Below the pieces are notes generated by a model that saw only the letters and a list, made by a program, of their open reading frames with translations, ran no database searches and was not told where the DNA came from. From Pseudomonadota bacterium (GTDB taxonomy: Bacteria; Pseudomonadota; Alphaproteobacteria; Acetobacterales; Acetobacteraceae), in the NCBI GenBank assembly GCA_021851785.1, contig JAJZBV010000002.1:124001-188000 (forward strand): a stretch of DNA of 64,000 bases, written 5' to 3'. The position numbers were made by a program, and so were the translations under genes. Below are positions 33,452-44,420 of this stretch, piece after piece; position 1 is the stretch's first letter; each line of letters starts with the position of its first letter.

Positions 33452-33480
33452 TTGACAGGTGTTTTTCACTCAATTAGTTT
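33452..33480 (+). promoter_or_regulatory. Candidate promoter for amiC-amiR
   Basis: A consensus TTGACA (33452-33457) with TAGTTT (33475-33480) after 17 bp, in an AT-rich patch about 85 bp before the amiC ATG. It abuts the eroded 5' end of the hydrolase remnant. Confidence 0.5.
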
Positions 33481-33564
33481 GAGACTGTGGTGGAGCGTTA
33501 TAAGCTCCATCAAAAGGGGAAGCCAAGCACTCGGCGTGAGCAATGGCTGCACGCAGGAGGTGTC

Positions 33565-34695
33565 ATGCTTAGCGCACGGAGACGGTCCAGCGCCGATGCG
33601 CCGTGGCGCGTGGGAGTGCTTTTTTCGTATACTGGCTATATGGCGCTGATCGAAGAGACGCAGCTTCGTGGAACATTGCTCGCGATTGACGAGATCAATG
33701 GCCAAGGCGGCGTGAATGGGCGAGAGATCCTGCCCATTCTCTATGATCCGGCGTCGGATCCCGCGTCTTGCGGGCGCTACGCCAAAAAATTGATGGTCTC
33801 AGACAATGTCACGATGATCTTCGGCTGCTACACGTCGAGCAGCCGCAAAGCGGTGCTGCCGGTGGTGGAGCGGTTGAACGGTCTGCTCTGGTACCCAACC
33901 ATCTACGAGGGATTTGAACTCTCTCCGAACGTCATCTACACCGGCGCCGCGCCCAACCAGAACAGCGTCAAGCTTTGCCGCTACCTGATGCAGAATTTTG
34001 GCAATCGATTCTTTTTCATCGGCTCCGATTATATCTATCCGCGCGAATCAAATCGGATCATGCGCGAGGTCGTGCGCCGGCATGGCGGCAAGGTGGTCGG
34101 CGAAACCTATCTCAGCCTCCGGGCGCAGCGCCACGATTTCCGCCCGGTGATGCGCGAGGTCAAGGATTTGCAGCCCGACGTGATATTTTCGACCGTCGTC
34201 GGCGATGCCACCACGTATCTTTATCAGAGCTATGCCGATGCCGGGTTCAATCCCAAGGTGATGCCGATCGCAAGTCTCACCACGACAGAGACGGAAATTT
34301 CCGCGATGGGCTTCGATGTCGGCGAACATCATGTGACCGCCGCCCCCTATTTTCAAAATCTTCCAGGCGACAGCAACGAAATGTTTGTCCAGAAATATAA
34401 GCGGCGTTATGGCGATGATCAGCCGACGAACATGTGTGCCGAAGCAGCCTATTTTCAGATGCACATTTTTGCCAAAGCGCTCGCCGCAACCAACTCGACG
34501 GATCCGGAAATTCTTCGCCCGATGGTGCTGGGCGCCGATTTCGAGGCGCCGCAGGGCAGGGTAACGATCAACGCCGCCAGCCACCACACCGACCTCTGGA
34601 CACGCATCGGCCGGGCGAACCGGGGCGGCCAATTCGATCTGGTCGAGCAATCGATTTCGCCGGTCACGGCGGATCCGTTTCTGCTCGCTTCCTAG
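33565..34695 (+). CDS. amiC: AmiC-like cytoplasmic amide sensor (negative regulator of AmiR)
   Basis: A 376-aa periplasmic-binding-protein fold of the Peripl_BP_5 type without a signal peptide, as in Pseudomonas AmiC (385 aa). ATG 33565 is chosen because AGGAGG ends 4 nt upstream. An earlier GTG at 33487 adds an unconserved 26 residues. The mature-like domain begins WRVGVLFSYTGYMALIEETQ. Ligand-cleft blocks such as YTSSSRKAVLPV and LWYPTIYEGFE closely match the UrtA-like protein encoded downstream. In Pseudomonas, AmiC sequesters AmiR until a short-chain amide binds. It is followed directly by amiR. Confidence 0.88.
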   Translation: MLSARRRSSADAPWRVGVLFSYTGYMALIEETQLRGTLLAIDEINGQGGVNGREILPILYDPASDPASCGRYAKKLMVSDNVTMIFGCYTSSSRKAVLPVVERLNGLLWYPTIYEGFELSPNVIYTGAAPNQNSVKLCRYLMQNFGNRFFFIGSDYIYPRESNRIMREVVRRHGGKVVGETYLSLRAQRHDFRPVMREVKDLQPDVIFSTVVGDATTYLYQSYADAGFNPKVMPIASLTTTETEISAMGFDVGEHHVTAAPYFQNLPGDSNEMFVQKYKRRYGDDQPTNMCAEAAYFQMHIFAKALAATNSTDPEILRPMVLGADFEAPQGRVTINAASHHTDLWTRIGRANRGGQFDLVEQSISPVTADPFLLAS

Positions 34696-34704
34696 TTGAT
34701 CGGC

Positions 34705-35295
34705 ATGAGCAGCGGCGACAAATCCTTGCCCAACGAGACGGTCAATATCGACATCGTGGTGGCCACCGCGCGAGACAGCTCCAGTGATGCGCTGCTGCGC
34801 GACCTGCAACGCACCCGCAACCATATAAAATACATCTGGCCGGTGCCGGAGATGCTACCGGCCGACACGGATGTGATTTTTTGTGATTTTCTGCCGGATC
34901 TGCCGTCGCGCCTTCCCTGGCTGCCGGGCGAACCGAAAGCCGCGCTGGTCGTTTTGCTGGCGCCGGGCATGACGGTCGATCTCGATCTTTTGCGCAAAAC
35001 CGCGCCTGAGGCCGTGCTGCACCGCCCGTTCACAACGTCTGCGGTGCTATCGAGCTTGGTGCTCGCCCGTTCACGCTTTACCTATGAGCGGCGTCTGCGC
35101 AGCCGGTTGGAGAAGCTGGACGTCACATTGCGGACCATGCGCAGCGTCGAGCGGGCAAAAACCATCCTGATGAATACGCGCAAGATCGATGAGGATGAAG
35201 CCTATGGCTTCCTTCGCCGGCAGGCCATGCAACGCCGGGTATCGGTGGGTGCCATCGCGGCGGCCATCGTTGACGCCGACGATCTCATGGGCTAA
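34705..35295 (+). CDS. amiR: AmiR-like ANTAR RNA-binding antiterminator
   Basis: A 196-aa protein, the same length as Pseudomonas AmiR. It has an N-terminal pseudo-receiver domain (about 15-120) and a helical linker, then an ANTAR domain at about 133-190. That domain contains RSVERAKTILMNTRKIDEDEAY and LRRQAMQRRVS, including the conserved alanine, lysine and aromatic positions of the three-helix RNA-binding bundle. ATG 34705 lies 9 nt after the amiC stop. The family binds tandem hexaloop hairpins in leader RNA and prevents termination. Just such a leader begins 30 bp downstream, between this gene and the transporter. Confidence 0.9.
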   Translation: MSSGDKSLPNETVNIDIVVATARDSSSDALLRDLQRTRNHIKYIWPVPEMLPADTDVIFCDFLPDLPSRLPWLPGEPKAALVVLLAPGMTVDLDLLRKTAPEAVLHRPFTTSAVLSSLVLARSRFTYERRLRSRLEKLDVTLRTMRSVERAKTILMNTRKIDEDEAYGFLRRQAMQRRVSVGAIAAAIVDADDLMG

Positions 35296-35324
35296 TGAGA
35301 TGATCTAGCGACGCTCCGGCGTCG

Positions 35325-35370
35325 GGTGGCAACAGCGCCGCCAAAAACCGAAATCAGGGCAGCAGCGCCC
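35325..35370 (+). promoter_or_regulatory. Tandem hexaloop hairpins: candidate ANTAR-binding RNA leader
   Basis: Hairpin P1 (35325-35342) has stem GGTGGC/GCCGCC and six-base loop AACAGC. Hairpin P2 (35357-35370) has stem GGGC/GCCC and loop AGCAGC. Both loops fit A-R-C-A-G-C. Fourteen nucleotides separate them. The 3' arm of P2 shares CCC (35368-35370) with the 5' arm of the terminator that follows, so stabilised P2 would oppose terminator folding. This is the tandem-hairpin layout known for ANTAR targets, though the loops lack the exact A1/G4 pattern described elsewhere. The match was made by eye and no folding energies were computed. Confidence 0.7.
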
Positions 35371-35413
35371 CTCTGCGACGACCATTCATGGTCGCGGCAG
35401 AGGGGTTTTTTTT
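35368..35413 (+). terminator. Intrinsic terminator controlled by the amide leader
   Basis: A long stem with outer arms CCCCTCTGC (35368-35376) and GCAGAGGGG (35397-35405), a short internal mismatch, then inner arms CGACC (35379-35383) and GGTCG (35390-35394). Eight Ts follow (35406-35413). It lies 23 bp before the urtA start. Confidence 0.9.
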
Positions 35414-35435
35414 GTTCCAACAACGGGGAAAAGGC

Positions 35436-36689
35436 ATGAGCATGAACAGGCGGTCGCTTCTGAAAGGAGCGATGGGGCTGGGAGCAGCCGGCGCGGCGGG
35501 TTTTCCGCATATCTGGATCAAGTCGGCTGATATGGCCTACGCGGCCGGCGGCGAGATCAAAATCGGCATCTTGTATTCGCTGACCGGCACCACGGCGATC
35601 ATCGAAACGTCGCTCAATCACGCGACGCTGATGGCAATCGACGAAATCAATGCCGCGGGCGGCGTGCATGGCAAGAAGCTCGTGCCGGTGGTGGAAGATC
35701 CGGAATCCGATCCGGCAACCTTTGCCCAGAAAGCGCGCAAGCTGGTGTTGAGCGACCGCTGTGTCAGCGTGTTCGGCTCCTACACCTCCGCCAGCCGCAA
35801 GGCGGTGCTGCCGGTATTCGAGAAATACAATAATCTTTACTGGTACCCGACCCTGTATGAAGGCCGTGAATGCTCGCAGAACGTCATATATACGGGCGCG
35901 GTTCCGAACCAGCAGCAAAAGGAGTTTGTTCCCTGGCTGGTGAAAAATTTTGGCAAGCGTTTCTATCTCATCGGATCCAACTACATCTATCCGAAGGAAG
36001 AAAATAACGTTTGTAAGATTTTGCTCAAGCAGTTGGGCGGCGAAGTCGTTGGCGAGGAATATGTACCGCTCGGGCATTCCGAGTTCAGTTCGGTGATCCA
36101 GAAATTCCAGGACACCAAGCCGAACGTCATCTTCTCGACCGTGGTTGGCGATTCGGTCGTCGCGCTGCACCGGCAATATAAGGCGGCTGGCCTTGATCCG
36201 GCAAAAATGCCGATGGCAAGCCTGACTACATCGGAAGAGGAAATCGCCGCCATGGGCGGTGAGTTTGCCGCCGGACATTTCACTTCGGCGCCTTATTTCA
36301 TGTCGTATGACTCTCCGGAAAACAAAAAATTCGTCGAATCTTATCAAAAGCGCTGGGGCGCGGACAAAGTCACCAATTTCGTGTCCGAGCCGGCATATTT
36401 CCAAGTGCATCTGTTCGCCAAGGCGGCGGCGAAGCTTGGCGCAAGTGATTTGCATCCAGCGGAAATCCGCAAAGCTGCGTGGGGAGAAACCGTCCAGGCC
36501 CCGGAAGGGCTGGTGAAGATCGACCCCGACAATTCGCACACTTATCTCTGGCCCAAAATCGGCGAGGCGCAGGCCAACGGACAGTTCAAGATCATCGAAC
36601 AGTCCAAGGAGTGGGTGAAACCGCTACCTTACTGGGCCTATGAAGGTGAAGTCTGCACGCCCACCGGCATGATGGAAAAGAAGAGTTAG
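35436..36689 (+). CDS. urtA: UrtA-type amide/urea ABC transporter substrate-binding protein
   Basis: A 417-aa periplasmic binding protein. The N-terminus has a twin-arginine-like signal (NRRSLLKGAMGLGAAGAAG, residues 3-21) and processing near the Ala-rich AYAAGG. The mature part EIKIGILYSLTGTTAIIETSL belongs to the branched-chain amino acid/urea/amide family. The cleft segments YTSASRKAVLPV and LYWYPTLYEGRE are nearly the same as in AmiC. By homology it is UrtA. With amiE and AmiC/AmiR next to it and no urease, short-chain amides are the more likely ligand. ATG 35436 follows GGGGAAAAGG. Expression should depend on antitermination at the preceding leader. Confidence 0.88.
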   Translation: MSMNRRSLLKGAMGLGAAGAAGFPHIWIKSADMAYAAGGEIKIGILYSLTGTTAIIETSLNHATLMAIDEINAAGGVHGKKLVPVVEDPESDPATFAQKARKLVLSDRCVSVFGSYTSASRKAVLPVFEKYNNLYWYPTLYEGRECSQNVIYTGAVPNQQQKEFVPWLVKNFGKRFYLIGSNYIYPKEENNVCKILLKQLGGEVVGEEYVPLGHSEFSSVIQKFQDTKPNVIFSTVVGDSVVALHRQYKAAGLDPAKMPMASLTTSEEEIAAMGGEFAAGHFTSAPYFMSYDSPENKKFVESYQKRWGADKVTNFVSEPAYFQVHLFAKAAAKLGASDLHPAEIRKAAWGETVQAPEGLVKIDPDNSHTYLWPKIGEAQANGQFKIIEQSKEWVKPLPYWAYEGEVCTPTGMMEKKS

Positions 36690-36741: not shown

Positions 36742-37614
36742 ATGACTGACCTGGCCAACCAAATCATCACCGGGCTGAGCATAGCTTCGATTCTTCTCCT
36801 GGTATCTCTCGGCCTTGCCATCATCTATGGCGTCATGGGCGTGATCAATCTCGCCCATGGCGATTTTCTCATGCTCGGCGCCTATGCCGTGTGGTTGATG
36901 GAATCCGCGCTCGGACTCGGGTTTTTGCCGTGTCTTGTAATGGTATTCTTTATCGTTGGTGCCATCGGCTGGCTCGTCGAGCGAACGCTGATACGGCATT
37001 TATACGGGCGGCCGCTCGACACGATTTTGGCGACCTGGGGAATCGGCATCATCCTGCAGCAAGCGATCCGGCTGAGTGCGGGTGCGCAACTGCGTTATGT
37101 CAAGATGCCGGATTACCTTGTCAACCCGCTCCATCTGCTCGGGTTGGATATATCGGCGTACCGCTTGCTGATATTCTCCGTGACGATCGTGCTCGTCGCG
37201 GTAACCTATATTCTGATCTTCCACACCAGTTTCGGCATAAGGCTGCGCGCGGTGATGCAAAATGCAGAGATCGCACGATGCTTCGGCATCAATAATGCGC
37301 GCATCTATTCCCTGACCTTCGCCTATGGCGCCGGCCTCGCCGGACTTGCGGGGGCTCTCGTGTCGCCGTTGAAAAGTGTCTCCCCGGATATGGGCACGAA
37401 CTATGTCGTGGATGCATTCCTGGTCGTCGTGTCGGGTGGCGTGCAGAGCCTGTTCGGCACTGTCGCCAGCGCCGGCATAATCGGTGAATTGTCGGGGGGG
37501 TTTGCCTATTTTTGGAACGACACCCTGGCGCGCGCGCTTTTGTTTTTCCTGGTTGTGGTCTTGATCAGATTCCGGCCGCAGGGAATATTCGCCATGCCGT
37601 TGCGGCGGGGTTGA
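36742..37614 (+). CDS. urtB: ABC transporter permease (UrtB/LivH type)
   Basis: A 290-aa inner-membrane permease with about eight hydrophobic helices. The motif YGVMGVINLAHGDFLMLGAY near the N-terminus is typical of LivH/UrtB proteins. The cytoplasmic coupling segment is RLRAVMQNAEIARCFGIN, followed by AGLAGALVSP. It partners with the urtC product. The urtB and urtC genes are 3 bp apart. Confidence 0.9.
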   Translation: MTDLANQIITGLSIASILLLVSLGLAIIYGVMGVINLAHGDFLMLGAYAVWLMESALGLGFLPCLVMVFFIVGAIGWLVERTLIRHLYGRPLDTILATWGIGIILQQAIRLSAGAQLRYVKMPDYLVNPLHLLGLDISAYRLLIFSVTIVLVAVTYILIFHTSFGIRLRAVMQNAEIARCFGINNARIYSLTFAYGAGLAGLAGALVSPLKSVSPDMGTNYVVDAFLVVVSGGVQSLFGTVASAGIIGELSGGFAYFWNDTLARALLFFLVVVLIRFRPQGIFAMPLRRG

Positions 37615-37617
37615 GCC

Positions 37618-38742
37618 ATGCGCCGAATCTTCATCTCCCGCGGCCACATCATCGGCTACGCAGCGTTTGCGTTGGCCATTCTTGTCGTGCCTCTGTTCAT
37701 CGATGACCCTTATCTTCTCAACAAACTCGCCCGCTACCTGATTTTCGGCATCCTTGCCGCGGCATTGGCGCTTTCCTGGGGCTATACCGGTATTCTCAAC
37801 CTTGGCCAGGCGGTCAGCTTTGGACTCGGTTCTTACTGCATGGCGATGACGCTGAAGCTTCATACCATCCCGATCCAAACCGGGGCCGCCGGATTGCCGG
37901 ATTTCATGGTATGGAACAACGTCAAATCTCTTCCTTGGTTTTGGGAGCCGTTCCATTCCACTGCCTTTGCTGTCGTGGCCGGTGTTGCGTTTCCGGTCGT
38001 GGTTGCCCTGCTTCTCGGCTGGTTTGTATTCAGGGCGCGTGTCACCGGCGTCTATGTTTCCATCATCACTTTAGCCATGCTGGTTGTCGTCAATCTGGTC
38101 ATCGTCGACCAGCAGCGCTTCACTGGTGGCTTCAATGGCCTGACCGACCTTGCCGATCTGAAGCTGTTCGGCATTGATTTCGACCCCTATAGCAGCGCCA
38201 CCTATTATCTGATCGCCCTGTCGCTGCTTGCGACCTTGATGATTGGTGAGCTTGTGGTCCGCAGCAAGACCGGCCTGATCATGCAGGCGATTCGCGATGA
38301 TGAGACGCGCGTGCGCTATTTTGGCTATGACGTCGCGCGCTATCAGATTTTCGCCTTTTGCGTCTCGGCTGGTCTCTCCGGTTTCGCCGGCATGCTCTAC
38401 GCGATGGTTATGGCCTTTGCATCGCCCACATTCTTGAGCGTGCAGATTTCTCTCTCGATCGTCATTTGGTGCGCGGTCGGTGGGCGGGAGTCGCTGATCG
38501 GATCTGCGCTCGGCGCCATCCTGGTGACCGGCATTCAAGGTGGCCTCTCGGAGACCCCGGCCTTCCTGAATACCTGGATGCTGATCATGGGAGCGCTGTT
38601 CGTCGCGGTGGTACTTTTCCTGCCGAAGGGGCTGATCAGCATTGTCCAGCTTGGGATGGCCCGTCTTGCGGGCAAGAAAATTTCTGCCTTGACAGAAGAT
38701 GAGGCGCCGTTACCGCGCGGCCATAAACTCGGGATTGGGTAA
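37618..38742 (+). CDS. urtC: ABC transporter permease (UrtC/LivM type)
   Basis: A 374-aa permease with the LivM/UrtC signature SWGYTGILNLGQAVSFGLGSY and the ATPase-coupling loop LIMQAIRDDETRVRYFGYDV. The C-terminal hydrophilic tail after the last helix (about 350 onward) is variable. It is followed by urtD after 3 bp. Confidence 0.9.
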   Translation: MRRIFISRGHIIGYAAFALAILVVPLFIDDPYLLNKLARYLIFGILAAALALSWGYTGILNLGQAVSFGLGSYCMAMTLKLHTIPIQTGAAGLPDFMVWNNVKSLPWFWEPFHSTAFAVVAGVAFPVVVALLLGWFVFRARVTGVYVSIITLAMLVVVNLVIVDQQRFTGGFNGLTDLADLKLFGIDFDPYSSATYYLIALSLLATLMIGELVVRSKTGLIMQAIRDDETRVRYFGYDVARYQIFAFCVSAGLSGFAGMLYAMVMAFASPTFLSVQISLSIVIWCAVGGRESLIGSALGAILVTGIQGGLSETPAFLNTWMLIMGALFVAVVLFLPKGLISIVQLGMARLAGKKISALTEDEAPLPRGHKLGIG

Positions 38743-38745
38743 GCC

Positions 38746-39495
38746 ATGTCCTTGCTGGAATTGAAAGGCGTCGAGGTGCAATTCAGCGGCTTTCGAGCGC
38801 TGCGTGGATTCGATCTCTCGGTTGCGGCGGGAGAGTTGCGCTGCCTGATCGGCCCGAACGGTGCCGGCAAGACCACTGCCCTCGATGTCATTTGCGGCAA
38901 GGCGCAAGTCAACGGTGGCGATATCATCTTCGCTGGACAAAATATCAGTCACTTCGAGGAGCATCGTATCGCCCGTCTCGGGATCGGCCGGAAATTCCAG
39001 GTGCCGAGCGTTTTCCGTGAGCTGACGGTCAAGGAGAATCTTCACGTCGCGTTTTGTCGTCGCGCCGGCGTGTTTGCCAATCTTGGCATCAGTGCGGCCA
39101 AGGCCAACGCTGACGAGTTAGAAAAACTGGCGGAACTCGTCGGCCTCAAGGAGAGTTTCCGGCGCGAGGCGGGAATTTTGTCGCATGGTCAGACACAATG
39201 GCTGGAGATCGCCATGCTCGTCGCGCAGGACGCGCAACTGCTCCTGCTCGACGAGCCGACCGCCGGCATGACCGCGGCCGAGACCCGTAAGACCGCCGAA
39301 TTATGCAAGCAGCTCAAAGGACGGCACACCATGCTCGTCGTCGAGCACGACATGGGTTTCATCAAGGAGATCGGAGACGTGATCTCGGTGATGCATCAGG
39401 GCCGCCTTCTGGCTCAGGGAACCGTCGCCGAGATCGAGAGCGATCCGGAAGTACGTAAAGCCTATCTCGGATCGGGGGGAATCCGCGGTGCTTGA
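38746..39495 (+). CDS. urtD: ABC transporter ATP-binding protein (UrtD/LivG type)
   Basis: A 249-aa ATPase. Walker A is GPNGAGKT at 36-43. The signature is LSHGQTQWLEIAM, where the canonical LSGGQ has become LSHGQ as is usual for UrtD. Walker B is LLLLDEPTAGM and the switch histidine is in VVEHDMGFI. It ends inside the urtE start with an 8-nt overlap. Confidence 0.92.
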   Translation: MSLLELKGVEVQFSGFRALRGFDLSVAAGELRCLIGPNGAGKTTALDVICGKAQVNGGDIIFAGQNISHFEEHRIARLGIGRKFQVPSVFRELTVKENLHVAFCRRAGVFANLGISAAKANADELEKLAELVGLKESFRREAGILSHGQTQWLEIAMLVAQDAQLLLLDEPTAGMTAAETRKTAELCKQLKGRHTMLVVEHDMGFIKEIGDVISVMHQGRLLAQGTVAEIESDPEVRKAYLGSGGIRGA

Positions 39496-40183
39496 ACTGA
39501 GCGACGTTTCCGCGTCCTACGGGCATGGCCGGGCTCTGCGTCACGTGTCCCTCAACGTCGCCGACGGAGAACTGCTCTCTGTTCTCGGCAGGAACGGTGT
39601 CGGCAAGACGACGCTGCTTCGCACGATCCTCGGTCTCATGGATCGCGCGAACGGCAGCATTCGGCTCGACGGGCAGGAAATCGGCAATTGCCGTACCGAT
39701 GAGCGGGCACGGGCCGGCATCGGCTATGTGCCGCAAGGTCGCGGCATCCTGCCGCGTTTCACGGTGATGGAAAATCTCCGTCTCGGGTTGTTCGCCAATC
39801 CCGATGCGGGCGGGCGGCTCGATGAGACGGTATTTGAATTATTCCCGATGCTGGGTGATCATCTGCATCGTCTTGGCGGCAATCTCTCCGGCGGGCAGCA
39901 GCAGCAACTGGCCATCGCGCGCGCCTTGCAGACCGCACCGAAAGTGATCCTGCTCGATGAGCCGACGGAGGGCATCCAGCCGAATATCGTCGAAGAAATC
40001 GAGCAGATTATCATACGTCTCAATCGTGAACGTGGCATCAGCGTCGTTCTGGTCGAGCAGAACGTGGCGTTTGCGCGCGAGGCGTCGCAACGTTTCATCA
40101 TCATGGAAAAGGGCGGGATCGCCGCGTCCGGTGACACCGGCGATCTGACCGAGGATCTGGTCCATCGTCATATGACGGTGTGA
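39488..40183 (+). CDS. urtE: ABC transporter ATP-binding protein (UrtE/LivF type)
   Basis: A 231-aa ATPase with a GTG start overlapping urtD. Walker A is GRNGVGKT at 34-41, the signature is [15 protein letters not shown], and Walker B is [13 protein letters not shown]. The Gln-rich signature is typical of UrtE/LivF. It completes a five-gene transporter ahead of amiE. Confidence 0.92.
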
Positions 40184-40235: not shown

Positions 40236-41273
40236 ATGCTTCATGGCGACATATCTAGCAGTAATGACACGGTCGGCGTTGCCGTCGTGAACTACAAGAT
40301 GCCTCGGCTTCATACGCGCGCCGAGGTGTTGGCGAACGCGCGGAAGATCGCGGATATGGTCAAGGGCATGAAAATCGGCTTGCCCGGCATGGATCTGGTG
40401 ATCTTCCCCGAATACAGCACTCACGGGATCATGTATGATTCCAAGGAAATGTATGAAACCGCGTCCGCCGTTCCCGGCGAAGAGACCGAGATCTTTGCCG
40501 AGGCGTGCCGCGGCGCCAAGGTCTGGGGGGTGTTTTCGCTGACCGGCGAGCGTCATGAGGAGCACCCGCACAAGGCGCCATACAACACGCTGATTCTGAT
40601 GAACGACAAGGGCGAAATCGTCCAGAAATACCGCAAGATCATGCCCTGGGTGCCGATCGAGGGCTGGTATCCCGGCAATTGCACCTACATGTCCGAGGGG
40701 CCGAAGGGGCTCAAGGTCAGCCTCATCATCTGCGACGACGGCAATTATCCCGAGATCTGGCGGGATTGCGCGATGAAGGGCGCGGAGCTGATCGTGCGCT
40801 GCCAGGGCTATATGTATCCGGCCAAGGATCAGCAGGTGCTGATGGCGAAGGCGATGGCGTGGGCGAATAATGTCTATGTCGCGGTGGCCAACGCTTCGGG
40901 TTTCGACGGCGTCTATTCCTATTTCGGCCACTCGGCGATCATCGGCTTCGACGGCCGCACGCTCGGCGAATGTGGCGAGGAGGATTACGGCATCCAATAC
41001 GCCCAGCTTTCCAAATCACTGATCCGTGACGCGCGGCGCAACATGCAGTCGGAGAATCATCTCTTCAAACTTCTGCACCGTGGCTACACGGGGATGATCA
41101 ACTCGCGCGAGGAGACGCGCGGCGTCGCCGCGTGCCCGTATGATTTCTACAAGCAGTGGGTCAATGATCCGGATGCCACACGCGAGATGGTGGAGGCGCT
41201 GACCCGCTCGACGGTGGGCACGGAGGAATGCCCGATCGAAGGCATTCCGCACGAAGCGGCGAGCCATCGCTGA
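40236..41273 (+). CDS. amiE: Aliphatic amidase (acylamide amidohydrolase)
   Basis: A 345-aa nitrilase-superfamily enzyme that hydrolyses short aliphatic amides to the acid and ammonia. The triad is at the canonical positions: Glu59 (FPEYS), Lys134 (KYRKIMPW) and Cys166 (IICDDGN). The N-terminus [20 protein letters not shown] and the length match Pseudomonas AmiE (346 aa). Formamidase AmiF is a paralogous alternative, but the N-terminal block and the AmiC/AmiR context favour AmiE. It lies 52 bp after urtE. The ammonia formed would feed glutamine synthetase, although glnA is 8 kb away. Confidence 0.94.
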
Positions 41274-41349
41274 GTTCGTTGCGCGGCGAGCCGATGCTGC
41301 GGCCCGCCGCGTTTTGTTCGCAACCCGAAGCCGCGCGAGGGGACGAGTG

Positions 41350-42147
41350 ATGATGCTTGCCGATCACTACATGACCGCCGAACCCTATTACCGCGCCGTG
41401 GGTGACGAGATCGCGCTGTTCGAGGCTGCCTACGCGACGCGCATGCCGGTGATGCTGAAGGGGCCGACCGGCTGCGGCAAGACGCGATTTGTCGAACACA
41501 TGGCCTGGCGTCTCGGCAAACCGATCGTCACCGCCGCCTGTCATGAGGACATGACGGCGTCGGATCTCGTCGGTCGCTATCTGCTCGATGCCGAGGGCAC
41601 CGTCTGGCATGACGGGCCGCTCACTCTCGCCGTGCGCCATGGTGCGATCTGCTATCTCGATGAGATCGTGGAGGCGAGGCAAGACACCACGGTGGTGATC
41701 CACCCGCTGACCGATGACCGCCGCGTTCTGCCGCTCGAGAAAAAGGGCGAACTCGCGCGCGCGCATCCTGATTTCCAGCTCGTCATCTCCTATAACCCGG
41801 GCTATCAGAGCGTCCTCAAGGATCTCAAGGAATCGACGAAACAACGCTTCAGCGCGATCGAGTTCGACTATCCCGAAGCTCGCGTCGAGGCCGAGATCGT
41901 CATGCACGAGGCGGGGATCGATGCCGAGGATGCCGCCCGGCTGGTCGCGATCGGGGCACGCTCGCGCCATCTCAAGGGGCATGGGCTGGCGGAGGGGGCA
42001 TCCACGCGGATGCTGATCCATGCCGGGCGGCTGCTCGCCAAGGGCATCGCGCGCGAAGCCGCTTGCCGCGTCGCTTTGATTTTGCCGATCACCGATGATG
42101 CCGATGTCAGGGAGGCGCTGTCCGCCGCGGTCAGCGCCTGCCTCTGA
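41350..42147 (+). CDS. CbbQ/NorQ-type MoxR AAA+ ATPase
   Basis: A 265-aa AAA+ ATPase. Walker A GPTGCGKT is at 38-45 and Walker B ICYLDEI at 100-106. Family-specific blocks are [29 protein letters not shown] and [16 protein letters not shown]. Homologues activate Rubisco (CbbQ) or nitric oxide reductase (NorQ) together with a VWA partner. No rbcL, norB or nirS gene is present here, so its client is unknown, and the AmiE system is the obvious candidate by position. ATG 41350 is 76 bp after amiE. The VWA partner starts 8 bp after its stop. Confidence 0.9.
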
Positions 42148-42155
42148 CGGCAGGG

Positions 42156-44420
42156 ATGGCTGACCGCGTGGATGCGGTGCGCGAGGCGTTGGCGCTGATG
42201 GACGCGCAGGTGGCACGGGCCTTTCCTGGCGCCTTGGCCGAACACTTCGCGCGTGTCTGCCATGACCTCGCGCAGGCAGCGCCGCCCGGCGCGGTTCTTG
42301 CCTATGCCCGCCATGCCCCGGCCGCGGTGCCATTCGTCGGAGCTGACGCGGTGCTGGCGATGGCTGGGGCGGTGGGCGAAGTGGCGCGGGCGGCCGGGAG
42401 ACATGCCGCCATCGCGTTCGCCGCCGCCGCCCCCGCCGCCGCCCGCGTCACCCGCGACGCCCCGTCATTCGCCGGCTGGGTTGGCGCCATCGCGTTGCTT
42501 GCGCCATCGGGCGCGGCGCCGGTGGTCGCCGTGCTCAAACGCAGCGAATCCCTGCTCGAGGATCTCGGCGCGACCGGGTTCGCGCGCTGGATCCAGGAGG
42601 GCCTGCGGGCGACCGAGGCGGCGCCAGAGCGGCGCGCGGCGTTTTTTGCCCTGGAAGGTGACGCCGGCCGCGGGGCCCGCGCGCGCGCGGCGGGCGAAAT
42701 CGGGTTCGCCGAACTCGATCGCCAACTCGGCCTGTTCGCCACCATGCTCTGGGGCGAGATCCCGCTTTTGCAGGCGGCGCCGCCCGATGCGGATGGCCGC
42801 CAGCGCCGCGCCAGCTTCGCCGGCACGGTGATCCGCCTGCCGCCGGCTTTCCGCGGGGTCGCGGCGCGGGATGCGGCAAACCTCTATCGCGCCGCGGTCG
42901 CGCATGTGATGGCGCATCTCCGCTTCGGCGGCGCGCGGTTTCCGCTCGGCGGCCTCAAGCCGCTGCAGGTCGCGCTCGTCTCGCTGATCGAGGATGCCCG
43001 TGTCGAACATCTCGCCCGGCGCGAATTGCCGGGGCTTGGCCGGCTATGGCTGCCCCATCACGTCGCCCGCCGCGATGGCGCTCTCGGCGCGGCTTCGCTG
43101 CTGGCCCGGCTCGCGCGGGCGCTGATCGACCCTGCCTATGACGACGGCAATCCCTGGGTCGAGAAGGGGCGCCGTCTGTTCGCCGAGGCCGCCGCCGCGT
43201 GGCATGATCCGGCGATCAGCCGGCAACTCGGCAATCTGCTCGGCAATGATCTCGGCCAGATGCGGGTGCAGTTCAATCCGCGCACGCATGTGGTGGAACC
43301 GCTTTATCGCGACGACAATCTCGGCCTCTGGGATTTCGGCGATGACGGCGCGAGTGACGCCGATGCGGCGGCGCTGCCGCGGCCGGCGCGCCTGGAGAGT
43401 GACGCGCACCGCCCGCCATCGCCGGATGCGCGCGAGGCCGCGGGCGAGACCGACCGGATCCAGACCGGCAGGATCCAGACCGGCAGGGTCCGCGCCGTCG
43501 CGCTGGACGCGGCGATCGGCATCCCGGTCGCTCGCTATCCGGAATGGGACCATCTGATCCGGGCGACGCGGCATGAGTGGACGACGCTGGTGGAATATCC
43601 GCCCCCGATCGGGGACGCGCTGGCGCTCCAGGCGAGGCTCGGCCGCCGCCAAGCGCTGATGGAGCGGATCGCGGCCCTGATCCGTGGCGCCCGGATCAGC
43701 CGCCCGGTGCGGCTGCGGCGGCAGGCGGAGGGGGAGCAGATCGACCTCGATGCCGCGCTCGCGGCGGCGATCGAGCGGCGCGCCGGCCTCGCCCCCGATC
43801 CGCGCGTCTATGCCCGAACCGAGCGGCACTCGCGCGATCTCGCCGTTGTGCTGCTCCTCGATGCCTCGCGCTCGACCAATGATCTGGTACCCGGCTCCGG
43901 CCGGCGTGTTCTCGATCTCGAAGTGGAGGCGGCGGCGCTGTTCGGCCGGGCGCTCCAGCGTGTCGGCGATCCGTTCGCGATCAGCGCCTTCTGCTCGAAC
44001 CGCCGCGGCGATGTGCGCTATTTTCGCATCAAGGATTTCTCGCAGCCTTACGAGGCGCGGACGGAGCGGCGCCTCGCCGGGCTCGATGGCCGATACTCGA
44101 CGCGCATGGGCGCCGCGCTCCGCCATGCCGGGGCGGAACTCGCCCTCCGCGATGCCTATCGCCGGCTCCTGCTCATCATCACCGACGGCGAGCCCTCGGA
44201 CATCGATATCGTCGATCGCCGCTACCTCGTCGAAGATGCCCGGCGCGCGGTGCAGGATCTCGCCCGTGCCGGGACAGACATATTCTGCATCGGCCTCGCC
44301 GGGCGCGGCGAGAGCGATCTTGCGCGCATTTTCGGCCCCCGCAACGTGTTGCACGTCGATCGGCTGGAGACGCTGCCCGAATCCCTGGCGAAGGTCTATT
44401 TTCGTCTGACCGGCACCTGA
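42156..44420 (+). CDS. CbbO/NorD-type von Willebrand factor A domain protein
   Basis: A 754-aa protein. The C-terminal VWA domain starts about residue 560, with the metal-ion site DASRSTND from Asp569, the threonine region RYSTRMGAALRHAG, and ITDGEPSD. The N-terminal 500 residues are helical and contain the NorD/CbbO-like block DARVEHLARRELPGLGRLW. A 15-bp in-frame duplication encodes R-I-Q-T-G twice near residue 435. It pairs with the ATPase gene just upstream. In known systems the VWA subunit docks the AAA+ ring on its target. The function here is unproven. Confidence 0.87.
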   Translation: MADRVDAVREALALMDAQVARAFPGALAEHFARVCHDLAQAAPPGAVLAYARHAPAAVPFVGADAVLAMAGAVGEVARAAGRHAAIAFAAAAPAAARVTRDAPSFAGWVGAIALLAPSGAAPVVAVLKRSESLLEDLGATGFARWIQEGLRATEAAPERRAAFFALEGDAGRGARARAAGEIGFAELDRQLGLFATMLWGEIPLLQAAPPDADGRQRRASFAGTVIRLPPAFRGVAARDAANLYRAAVAHVMAHLRFGGARFPLGGLKPLQVALVSLIEDARVEHLARRELPGLGRLWLPHHVARRDGALGAASLLARLARALIDPAYDDGNPWVEKGRRLFAEAAAAWHDPAISRQLGNLLGNDLGQMRVQFNPRTHVVEPLYRDDNLGLWDFGDDGASDADAAALPRPARLESDAHRPPSPDAREAAGETDRIQTGRIQTGRVRAVALDAAIGIPVARYPEWDHLIRATRHEWTTLVEYPPPIGDALALQARLGRRQALMERIAALIRGARISRPVRLRRQAEGEQIDLDAALAAAIERRAGLAPDPRVYARTERHSRDLAVVLLLDASRSTNDLVPGSGRRVLDLEVEAAALFGRALQRVGDPFAISAFCSNRRGDVRYFRIKDFSQPYEARTERRLAGLDGRYSTRMGAALRHAGAELALRDAYRRLLLIITDGEPSDIDIVDRRYLVEDARRAVQDLARAGTDIFCIGLAGRGESDLARIFGPRNVLHVDRLETLPESLAKVYFRLTGT
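43456..43485 (+). repeat. 15-bp in-frame tandem duplication
   Basis: Two perfect copies of GGATCCAGACCGGCA inside the VWA gene, in a poorly conserved linker. The unit length keeps the frame. Confidence 0.9.

Follow-up and report, generated by a model that had tools for sequence, protein, structure and literature searches.

A predicted AmiC/AmiR-controlled transcription attenuator with A4 hexaloops in front of urt-type transporter and amidase genes

ANTAR proteins such as AmiR, NasR and EutV bind paired hexaloop hairpins and block termination. In the excerpts of the literature on which our comparison is based, an A at position 1 and a G at position 4 of the loop (A1 and G4) are described for ANTAR hexaloops, mutation at these positions lowers EutV induction and binding, and A1/G4 forms part of the definition used in searches for ANTAR targets (PMC3369931). 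The importance of G4 is documented for EutV and NasR (PMC3369931, PMC8934654, PMC3369936); in SELEX, NasR preferred A1/G4 with a C:G pair closing the loop (PMC7496416). Tyr164 is the residue onto which G4 flips in the structure of EutV with RNA, Arg142, Lys149 and Glu160 hold the base, and G4 is described as the only base-specific contact (PMC8934654). One target search accepted loops with a single point variation and linkers of 2–25 nt (PMC8164766, in the part consulted); therefore departures in the loop have been tolerated in earlier searches. As to the genes controlled, ANTAR RNAs upstream of urea transporters have already been reported (PMC3369931), and a Klebsiella plasmid operon is described as consisting of amiC, amiR, ABC transporter genes and amiE (PMC13209695). 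Among the titles of the open-licence literature we found none on A4 loops or on the leader considered here.

This leader lies between amiR and the genes of a urt-type transporter in a 64-kb stretch of DNA (hereafter the window). It resembles the described ANTAR targets in most respects but has A4 instead of G4 in both loops. Loci used for comparison are designated by L numbers.

Organization of the ami locus and its leader

All genes and leader elements from amiC to amiE are located on the + strand. The amiC gene (33565–34695) encodes a cytoplasmic amide sensor with a Peripla_BP_5 domain, a homologue of the P. aeruginosa sensor (PDB 1PEA AmiC, E 2.1e-86). Its start is likelier to be the ATG at 33565, behind an AGGAGG, than the GTG at 33487 that opens the orf. 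A possible amiC promoter was noticed by eye at 33452–33480 (TTGACA at 33452–33457, a 17-nt spacer and TAGTTT at 33475–33480); the pair is absent from the listing of a consensus promoter scan, and inspection by eye also showed a TTGACA at about this position before amiC in L003, L004, L005 and L006. The adjacent amiR gene (34696–35295, ATG at 34705) encodes a pseudo-receiver ANTAR antiterminator protein with an N-terminal AmiR_N pseudo-receiver (PF21332, 51.6 bits, cut-off 27) and a C-terminal ANTAR domain (PF03861, 59 bits, cut-off 27.3), and it matches PDB 1QO0_D (AmiR) with E 2.5e-12. The original prediction that the ANTAR protein is AmiR was thus borne out, with AmiC as its partner by the 1PEA match. 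No other ANTAR match was found in the genome.

Downstream of the leader, the gene of the transporter substrate-binding protein (SBP), four urt-type genes and amiE form a co-directional run, with amiE behind the transporter. The SBP gene (35436–36689) encodes a Peripla_BP_5 protein whose closest PDB entry is 8TG1, followed by urea-binding proteins, and which has a weak Tat-type signal match (TAT_signal, E 0.00058, below its cut-off). Since the SBP reaches only 426 bits against the UrtA profile, below the cut-off of 493, we infer the substrate of the transporter from its gene company. The permeases of urtB type (36742–37614, TIGR03409) and urtC type (37618–38742, TIGR03408) and the ATPases of urtD type (38746–39495, TIGR03411) and urtE type (39488–40183, TIGR03410) all score over the respective cut-offs. 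The amiE gene (40236–41273) encodes an aliphatic amidase (NF009802, 722 bits; PDB 2PLQ, E 4e-195). It had been proposed that AmiR acts here on the transporter genes and not on an amiE leader. The leader does precede the transporter, but amiE belongs to the same run, and a scan of the window with the covariance model R1 (see below) did not find a second attenuator before amiE; we therefore expect transporter and amidase to be under common control of the site. The possibility of an attenuator before amiC in the window was also considered and rejected, as the same scan found none.

It should be mentioned that amiE is followed by genes of a CbbQ/NorQ-type ATPase and a VWA protein (41314–44420). 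Both also follow amiE in R. etli, and CbbQ does so in Roseibium. A similar CbbQ/VWA-like pair is described beside a plasmid amiE in the excerpt of PMC13209695.

The leader itself, defined by sequence and energy evaluation, is composed of two hexaloop hairpins and an intrinsic terminator. Hairpin P1 (35325–35342) has a stem of 6 bp, GGUGGC/GCCGCC, with one U-G pair, and the loop AACAGC (35331–35336). A linker of 14 nt (35343–35356) separates it from the antiterminator hairpin P2 (35357–35370), which has a stem of 4 bp, GGGC/GCCC, and the loop AGCAGC (35361–35366). The terminator (35368–35413) has a 9-bp stem (35368–35376/35397–35405) with an inner hairpin within and ends in T8 (35406–35413); its 5' arm and P2 have the three bases 35368–35370 in common. 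The tandem hexaloop hairpins after the ANTAR gene, the three-base overlap and the eight Ts are thus as originally described, and the distance from the terminator to the start codon, given as 23 bp, is corrected here to 22 bases (from the last T of T8 to the SBP ATG at 35436, with GGGGA at 35425–35429 on its 5' side). The fold also contains a UCCG-tetraloop hairpin, P0 (35310–35323), abutting P1; hairpins of different sequence were seen by eye at this place in L004, L005, L006, L039 and L041.

In comparison with the known ANTAR target RNAs, the leader has both hairpins with stems of at least 3 bp and six-base loops, A1 in P1 and P2, C-G closing pairs in both, an overlap of P2 with the terminator and a single, adjacent ANTAR gene in the same genome. 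C-G closing pairs are also the rule in an alignment of 19 leaders, A2 (19/19 in P1, 16/19 in P2). Position 4 departs from the described pattern, both loops having A4 followed by G5.

Conservation and distribution of the leader

Region 35310–35440 folds with z = -4.98, and 0 of 200 shuffles were equally stable. We used a structure-only finder that looks for two hexaloop hairpins, the second of which overlaps a terminator arm. Any P1-P2-terminator triple appeared in 7 of 5000 dinucleotide shuffles of 35296–35435, and none of the 5000 scored as high. Across the 64-kb window the finder gave 13 raw matches on the + strand (the site included) and 20 on the – strand, counts that include overlapping alternatives. 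Among the matches listed (the best six per strand), one near position 97 (+) slightly outscores the site (25.0 vs 24.7). Within 64 kb the site is therefore distinguished by its conservation and not by geometry on its own. R1, built with the window included, gives the site 46.4 bits, with 18.0 bits for the next match in the window and 20.5 bits for the next-best match in the genome (150 of 4101 candidates scored), which led us to reject a second attenuator elsewhere in the genome. In six of the nine next-best R1 loci (L067–L075) the finder reported low-scoring triples (15.0–21.3), and no listed triple (two per locus) had A1 in both loops. Model R2, built without the genus of the window, still finds the site with 34.3 bits and L004 with 37.1 (next in the window, 15.1). 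The leader itself has no Rfam match; the only one in the searched region 34000–36500 was elsewhere and below its cut-off (E 2.9).

For the study of covariation, 24 hairpin stretches were picked by eye; 20 of them form alignment A1 (L013, L059, L061 and the second L062 site were left out) and 19 form A2 (L045 was left out as well). In the latter, seven out of 10 pairs changed on both sides (5/6 in P1 and 2/4 in P2). Paired cells make up 93.7% vs 86.7% in shuffles, and of five measures four were reached in 0/500 shuffles and the fifth in 15/500; as the rows were chosen for hairpins, pairing is inflated more than covariation. A covariance search in related genomes had been proposed together with the original prediction; it was run, the leader covaries, and as far as conservation is concerned the prediction held.

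The P1/P2/terminator layout behind amiR recurs in related Alphaproteobacteria, both in orthologues and in plasmid-borne relatives. R. etli and Roseibium have the gene order of the window (amiC, amiR, SBP, urtBCDE, amidase, CbbQ), and in Aestuarium the SBP, urt genes, amiE and an AAA ATPase stand behind a "hypothetical" protein matching AmiR. In L042 and L043 the attenuator directly precedes a sequence that reads, by eye, as amiE; Agrobacterium L059 and Paracoccus L092 have different genes downstream. In total, 83 AmiR-like loci were run through the finder. Some triple was reported in 39 of them, of which 34 (near-copies included) were accepted as attenuators and five judged chance; 44 had none, and many of the 49 loci without an accepted attenuator have distant AmiR-like proteins. 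In the closer clade (24 hand-listed loci) an attenuator is present in 20, the exceptions being L003, L012, L059 and L061. The last two have seven-base P2 loops (by eye), in L012 a CbbQ-like sequence follows without a leader, and in L003 the leader is decayed. L003 comes from the same-genus genome G003, in which amiR is intact and no amiE match was found, the contig ending 137 bases past amiR; decayed leader and missing amiE together are suggestive only.

Among 385 genomes of the class, scanned with R1 under stricter filters that lose weak matches, R1 matches were found in the same four genomes that have AmiR at E <= 1e-20. All four are sources of R1 sequences, so only the silence of the other 381 is informative. 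Searches of 43 genomes of the order and 13 of the genus gave one new AmiR locus, L093.

Additional attenuators were observed at several loci. R1 finds sites outside its build upstream of amiC in L057 (38.3 bits), L059 (34.3), L079 (25.0) and L060 (19.0, E 0.12), and one in Roseibium L058 (31.8 bits); the finder sees a terminator at all five. The former four (L057:5570-5621, L059:5610-5660, L060:5493-5541, L079:1483-1531) are P1-P2-terminator attenuators through which AmiR would control the genes of the sensor and of the regulator itself (autoregulation). The one in Roseibium aggregatum (L058:3073-3123), also upstream of amiC, fronts genes of a cytosine permease and an alpha/beta hydrolase. Two attenuators in series lie between amiR and the next gene in L057:7602-7753, L058:7566-7719, L060:7593-7746 and L079:3577-3780; serial pairs also occur in L062:1292-1466, L093:1292-1452, L122 and L123, and in L062 and L093 the P1 loop of the second site lacks A1. 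A third hexaloop hairpin (GAGC, loop AGGUUU/AGGAUU, GCUC), possibly an extra ANTAR site, was seen by eye just 5' of P1 in L086, L099–L102 and L106. The distant AmiR-like clade of L015, L016 and L046–L051, in which the finder gave no accepted attenuator, has by eye a P1-like hairpin with a mismatch just below an A1/G4 hexaloop, and in some members a P2 of the form GGC-AUCGAA-GCC.

Variation of the hexaloops

We compared the loops of 42 leaders, which comprise 37 distinct loop pairs; the set omits 11 of the 48 finder rows, excluded by judgement, and includes five rows added by hand (L039, L040, L080 and the second sites of L062 and L093). The window and L002 represent one species. Of the 74 loops in the distinct pairs, 49 have G4, 21 have A4 and four have U4; A1 is present in 49. 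Neither loop has G4 in seven pairs: L002 (the same as the window), L004, L041, L042, L043, the first site of L058 and L080. These leaders usually have A4, often G5, and mostly unchanged G4-contact residues in AmiR. When six of the no-G4 leaders were labelled on a 28-row AmiR tree, no fewer than five gains or losses of this state were needed, and it showed no clustering (191/500 shuffles were as low). Judging from these sequences, absence of G4 from both loops is a departure found within the family, at scattered points of the AmiR tree.

The original prediction had put forward A-R-C-A-G-C as a loop consensus different from A1/G4. Such loops are real in the window species and in L004 (A4/A4), but they do not replace A1/G4: the neighbours L005 and L006 carry A1/G4 loops in P1 as well as P2, and in L038 only P1 has A4, P2 having G4. 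As a general AmiR consensus, A-R-C-A-G-C was rejected.

How AmiR could read loops without G4 was considered in two ways. According to one of them, which would refine the ANTAR reading and not replace it, A1-N-N-A4-G5-N would be the pattern recognized by the AmiR of this genus and, through convergence, by certain others, with G5 or A4 flipped out instead of G4 and with P1 and P2 having evolved in concert to suit. This is consistent with the enrichment of G5 in A4 loops (12/21 vs 8/49 of G4 loops, Fisher p 0.001, kinship ignored), although on distinct loops the figures are 6/14 vs 8/38 (p 0.16, kinship ignored). The two loops of a leader are also more alike than in shuffled pairs (2.41 vs 2.06 of 6, p 0.02, kinship ignored), most of all in L004 (6/6) and the window (5/6), and A4 in P1 accompanies A4 in P2 (6/12 vs 3/25, p 0.036, kinship ignored). 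Moreover, three loci whose loops lack G4 (L042, L043 and L080) no longer have the equivalent of EutV E160, one of the G4 contacts; L042 and L043 are close kin, and the P2 of L080 is hand-picked and bulged.

Several RNA-contact residues of the window protein speak against such a shift. Six of the 11 EutV contact positions are identical in it (K149, E160, Y164, R168, M172, R175), among them the equivalents of Y164, K149 and E160; K is replaced by R at 143 and 147, and R142M, N173Q and R177S are changed. It agrees at 9/11 positions with AmiR of L005 (G4 in both loops) and at 10/11 with that of L038 (mixed loops). R142M and R177S are common to the window and L005, and L006, also with G4, has R142F and R177S. 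Except for the loss of E160 in the three loci above, no relation between contact residues and loop state was found. Furthermore, Roseibium L058 carries A4 and G4 loops at one locus: AACAGC/AAAAGA in the first attenuator before the transporter, GACGAU (G4) as the second P2, and AACGGG (G4) with GAAAAG in another attenuator. Because this locus has both kinds, one ordinary AmiR reading A4 and G4 loops is the simpler account; the mixture in L038 and the unclustered loop states on the AmiR tree likewise count against a shifted code, which we regard as doubtful. It can also be hypothesized that AmiR repeatedly re-specified the hexaloop code from A1/G4 to A1/A4-G5, P1 first and P2 later, with co-evolution of the loops and the protein surface, so that the lineage would record the intermediates (L005/L006 canonical, L038 half-changed, window/L004 fully changed); this seems unlikely. 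Tolerance of the absence of G4 appears likelier than a new code; most probably, an ordinary AmiR would read the A4 loops as variants that it tolerates.

The window therefore contains a conserved, adjacent, single-site system without G4 in both loops, as do some other AmiR leaders, and searches insisting on A1/G4 could miss such sites. The recognition of RNA by ANTAR proteins could be probed with the natural variants in this set of leaders, one of which is a half-changed intermediate.

Proposed mechanism and comparison with known systems

Folded in silico, transcripts ending at 35371, 35376, 35384, 35395 and 35400 all contain P1 and P2, and in the transcript ending at 35405 the terminator replaces P2. 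The full 89-nt element reaches -45.7 kcal/mol vs -43.9 with P1 and P2 forced, which favours the terminator by 1.8, an uncertain margin, because base pairs between linker and U-tract contribute to the forced fold, although the U-tract would not be free during termination. According to this modelling the antiterminator can form first, and a protein holding P2 briefly could decide the outcome.

A leader with this anatomy, conservation, covariation and folding order in silico, present as a single strong site in a genome with a single ANTAR gene, is very probably an AmiC/AmiR-controlled transcription attenuator inside the operon that switches the urt-type amide transporter and amiE. The amiCR genes would probably be transcribed from a promoter before amiC, outside attenuator control; an amide switch placed between the regulators and the transporter-plus-amidase operon leaves the regulators themselves outside its control. 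Beyond amiR, polymerase would first transcribe P1 and P2 and then the terminator, with its 5' arm overlapping P2. In the absence of amide, AmiR would be held by AmiC and termination would prevail, so that the transporter and amiE would be off. With amide, AmiC would free AmiR, which would bind the P1 and P2 loops and hold P2 until polymerase is past the U-tract, so that transporter and amidase would be expressed together. Amide release, RNA binding and read-through are taken by analogy from AmiC/AmiR of P. aeruginosa and EutV of E. faecalis.

Several features count against this reading. Both loops are without G4, which mattered for EutV and NasR, three of the 11 EutV contacts (R142M, N173Q, R177S) are changed, P2 has only 4 bp, and 49 of the 83 AmiR-like loci are without an accepted attenuator. 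A linker of 14 nt drastically reduced induction in the eutP leader, according to the excerpt of PMC3369931; linkers of the related leaders range from 7 to 16 nt. There may also be a separate promoter directly upstream of P1. If the transporter had its own promoter, the element could be a plain operon-boundary terminator of amiCR, with P1 and P2 incidental or relics. The strength of the terminator would fit this, as would the decay of the G003 leader although amiR is intact there; but the covariation in 5/6 pairs of P1 and the detection of the site by a model built without its own genus speak against it, and the 22 bases from the T-run to the ATG leave little room for a promoter, so we consider this explanation very improbable. 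The leader might instead be read by a factor other than AmiR (a riboswitch, another RNA-binding protein or ribosome-coupled attenuation). This appears extremely improbable in view of the lack of an Rfam match in the leader, of AmiR being the only ANTAR protein and encoded next to it, and of the layout following amiR in relatives.

An attenuator controlled by AmiC/AmiR has its closest counterpart in P. aeruginosa amiECBRS, with which it shares the AmiC sensor, the pseudo-receiver AmiR, a dual-hairpin leader overlapping a terminator and an aliphatic amidase as target. The arrangement is different: in P. aeruginosa the leader stands in front of amiE, with amiC and amiR farther downstream in the operon (PMC3369936, in the part consulted), whereas in the window amiCR lie upstream of the leader, and the latter stands before a urt-type transporter and then amiE. 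The loops of the P. aeruginosa amiE leader are described as A1/G4 (excerpt of PMC3369931), while those of the window both have A4. In the position of the regulator genes directly upstream and of the attenuator before the structural operon, the locus resembles the NasTS/nasA leader of Paracoccus denitrificans (as described in the excerpt of PMC5424462), which serves nitrate sensing through NasS/NasT instead of AmiC/AmiR. With the ANTAR target RNA of EutV and NasR (Ramesh 2012) it has in common two hexaloop hairpins, C-G closing pairs, A1, the overlap of P2 with the terminator, nitrogen genes downstream and a linker within the 2–25 nt given in the excerpt of PMC8164766; it differs from this RNA in being without G4 in both loops. 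Since G4 was looked for and is absent here, we file the leader as a variant and not as a plain member of the ANTAR target RNAs.
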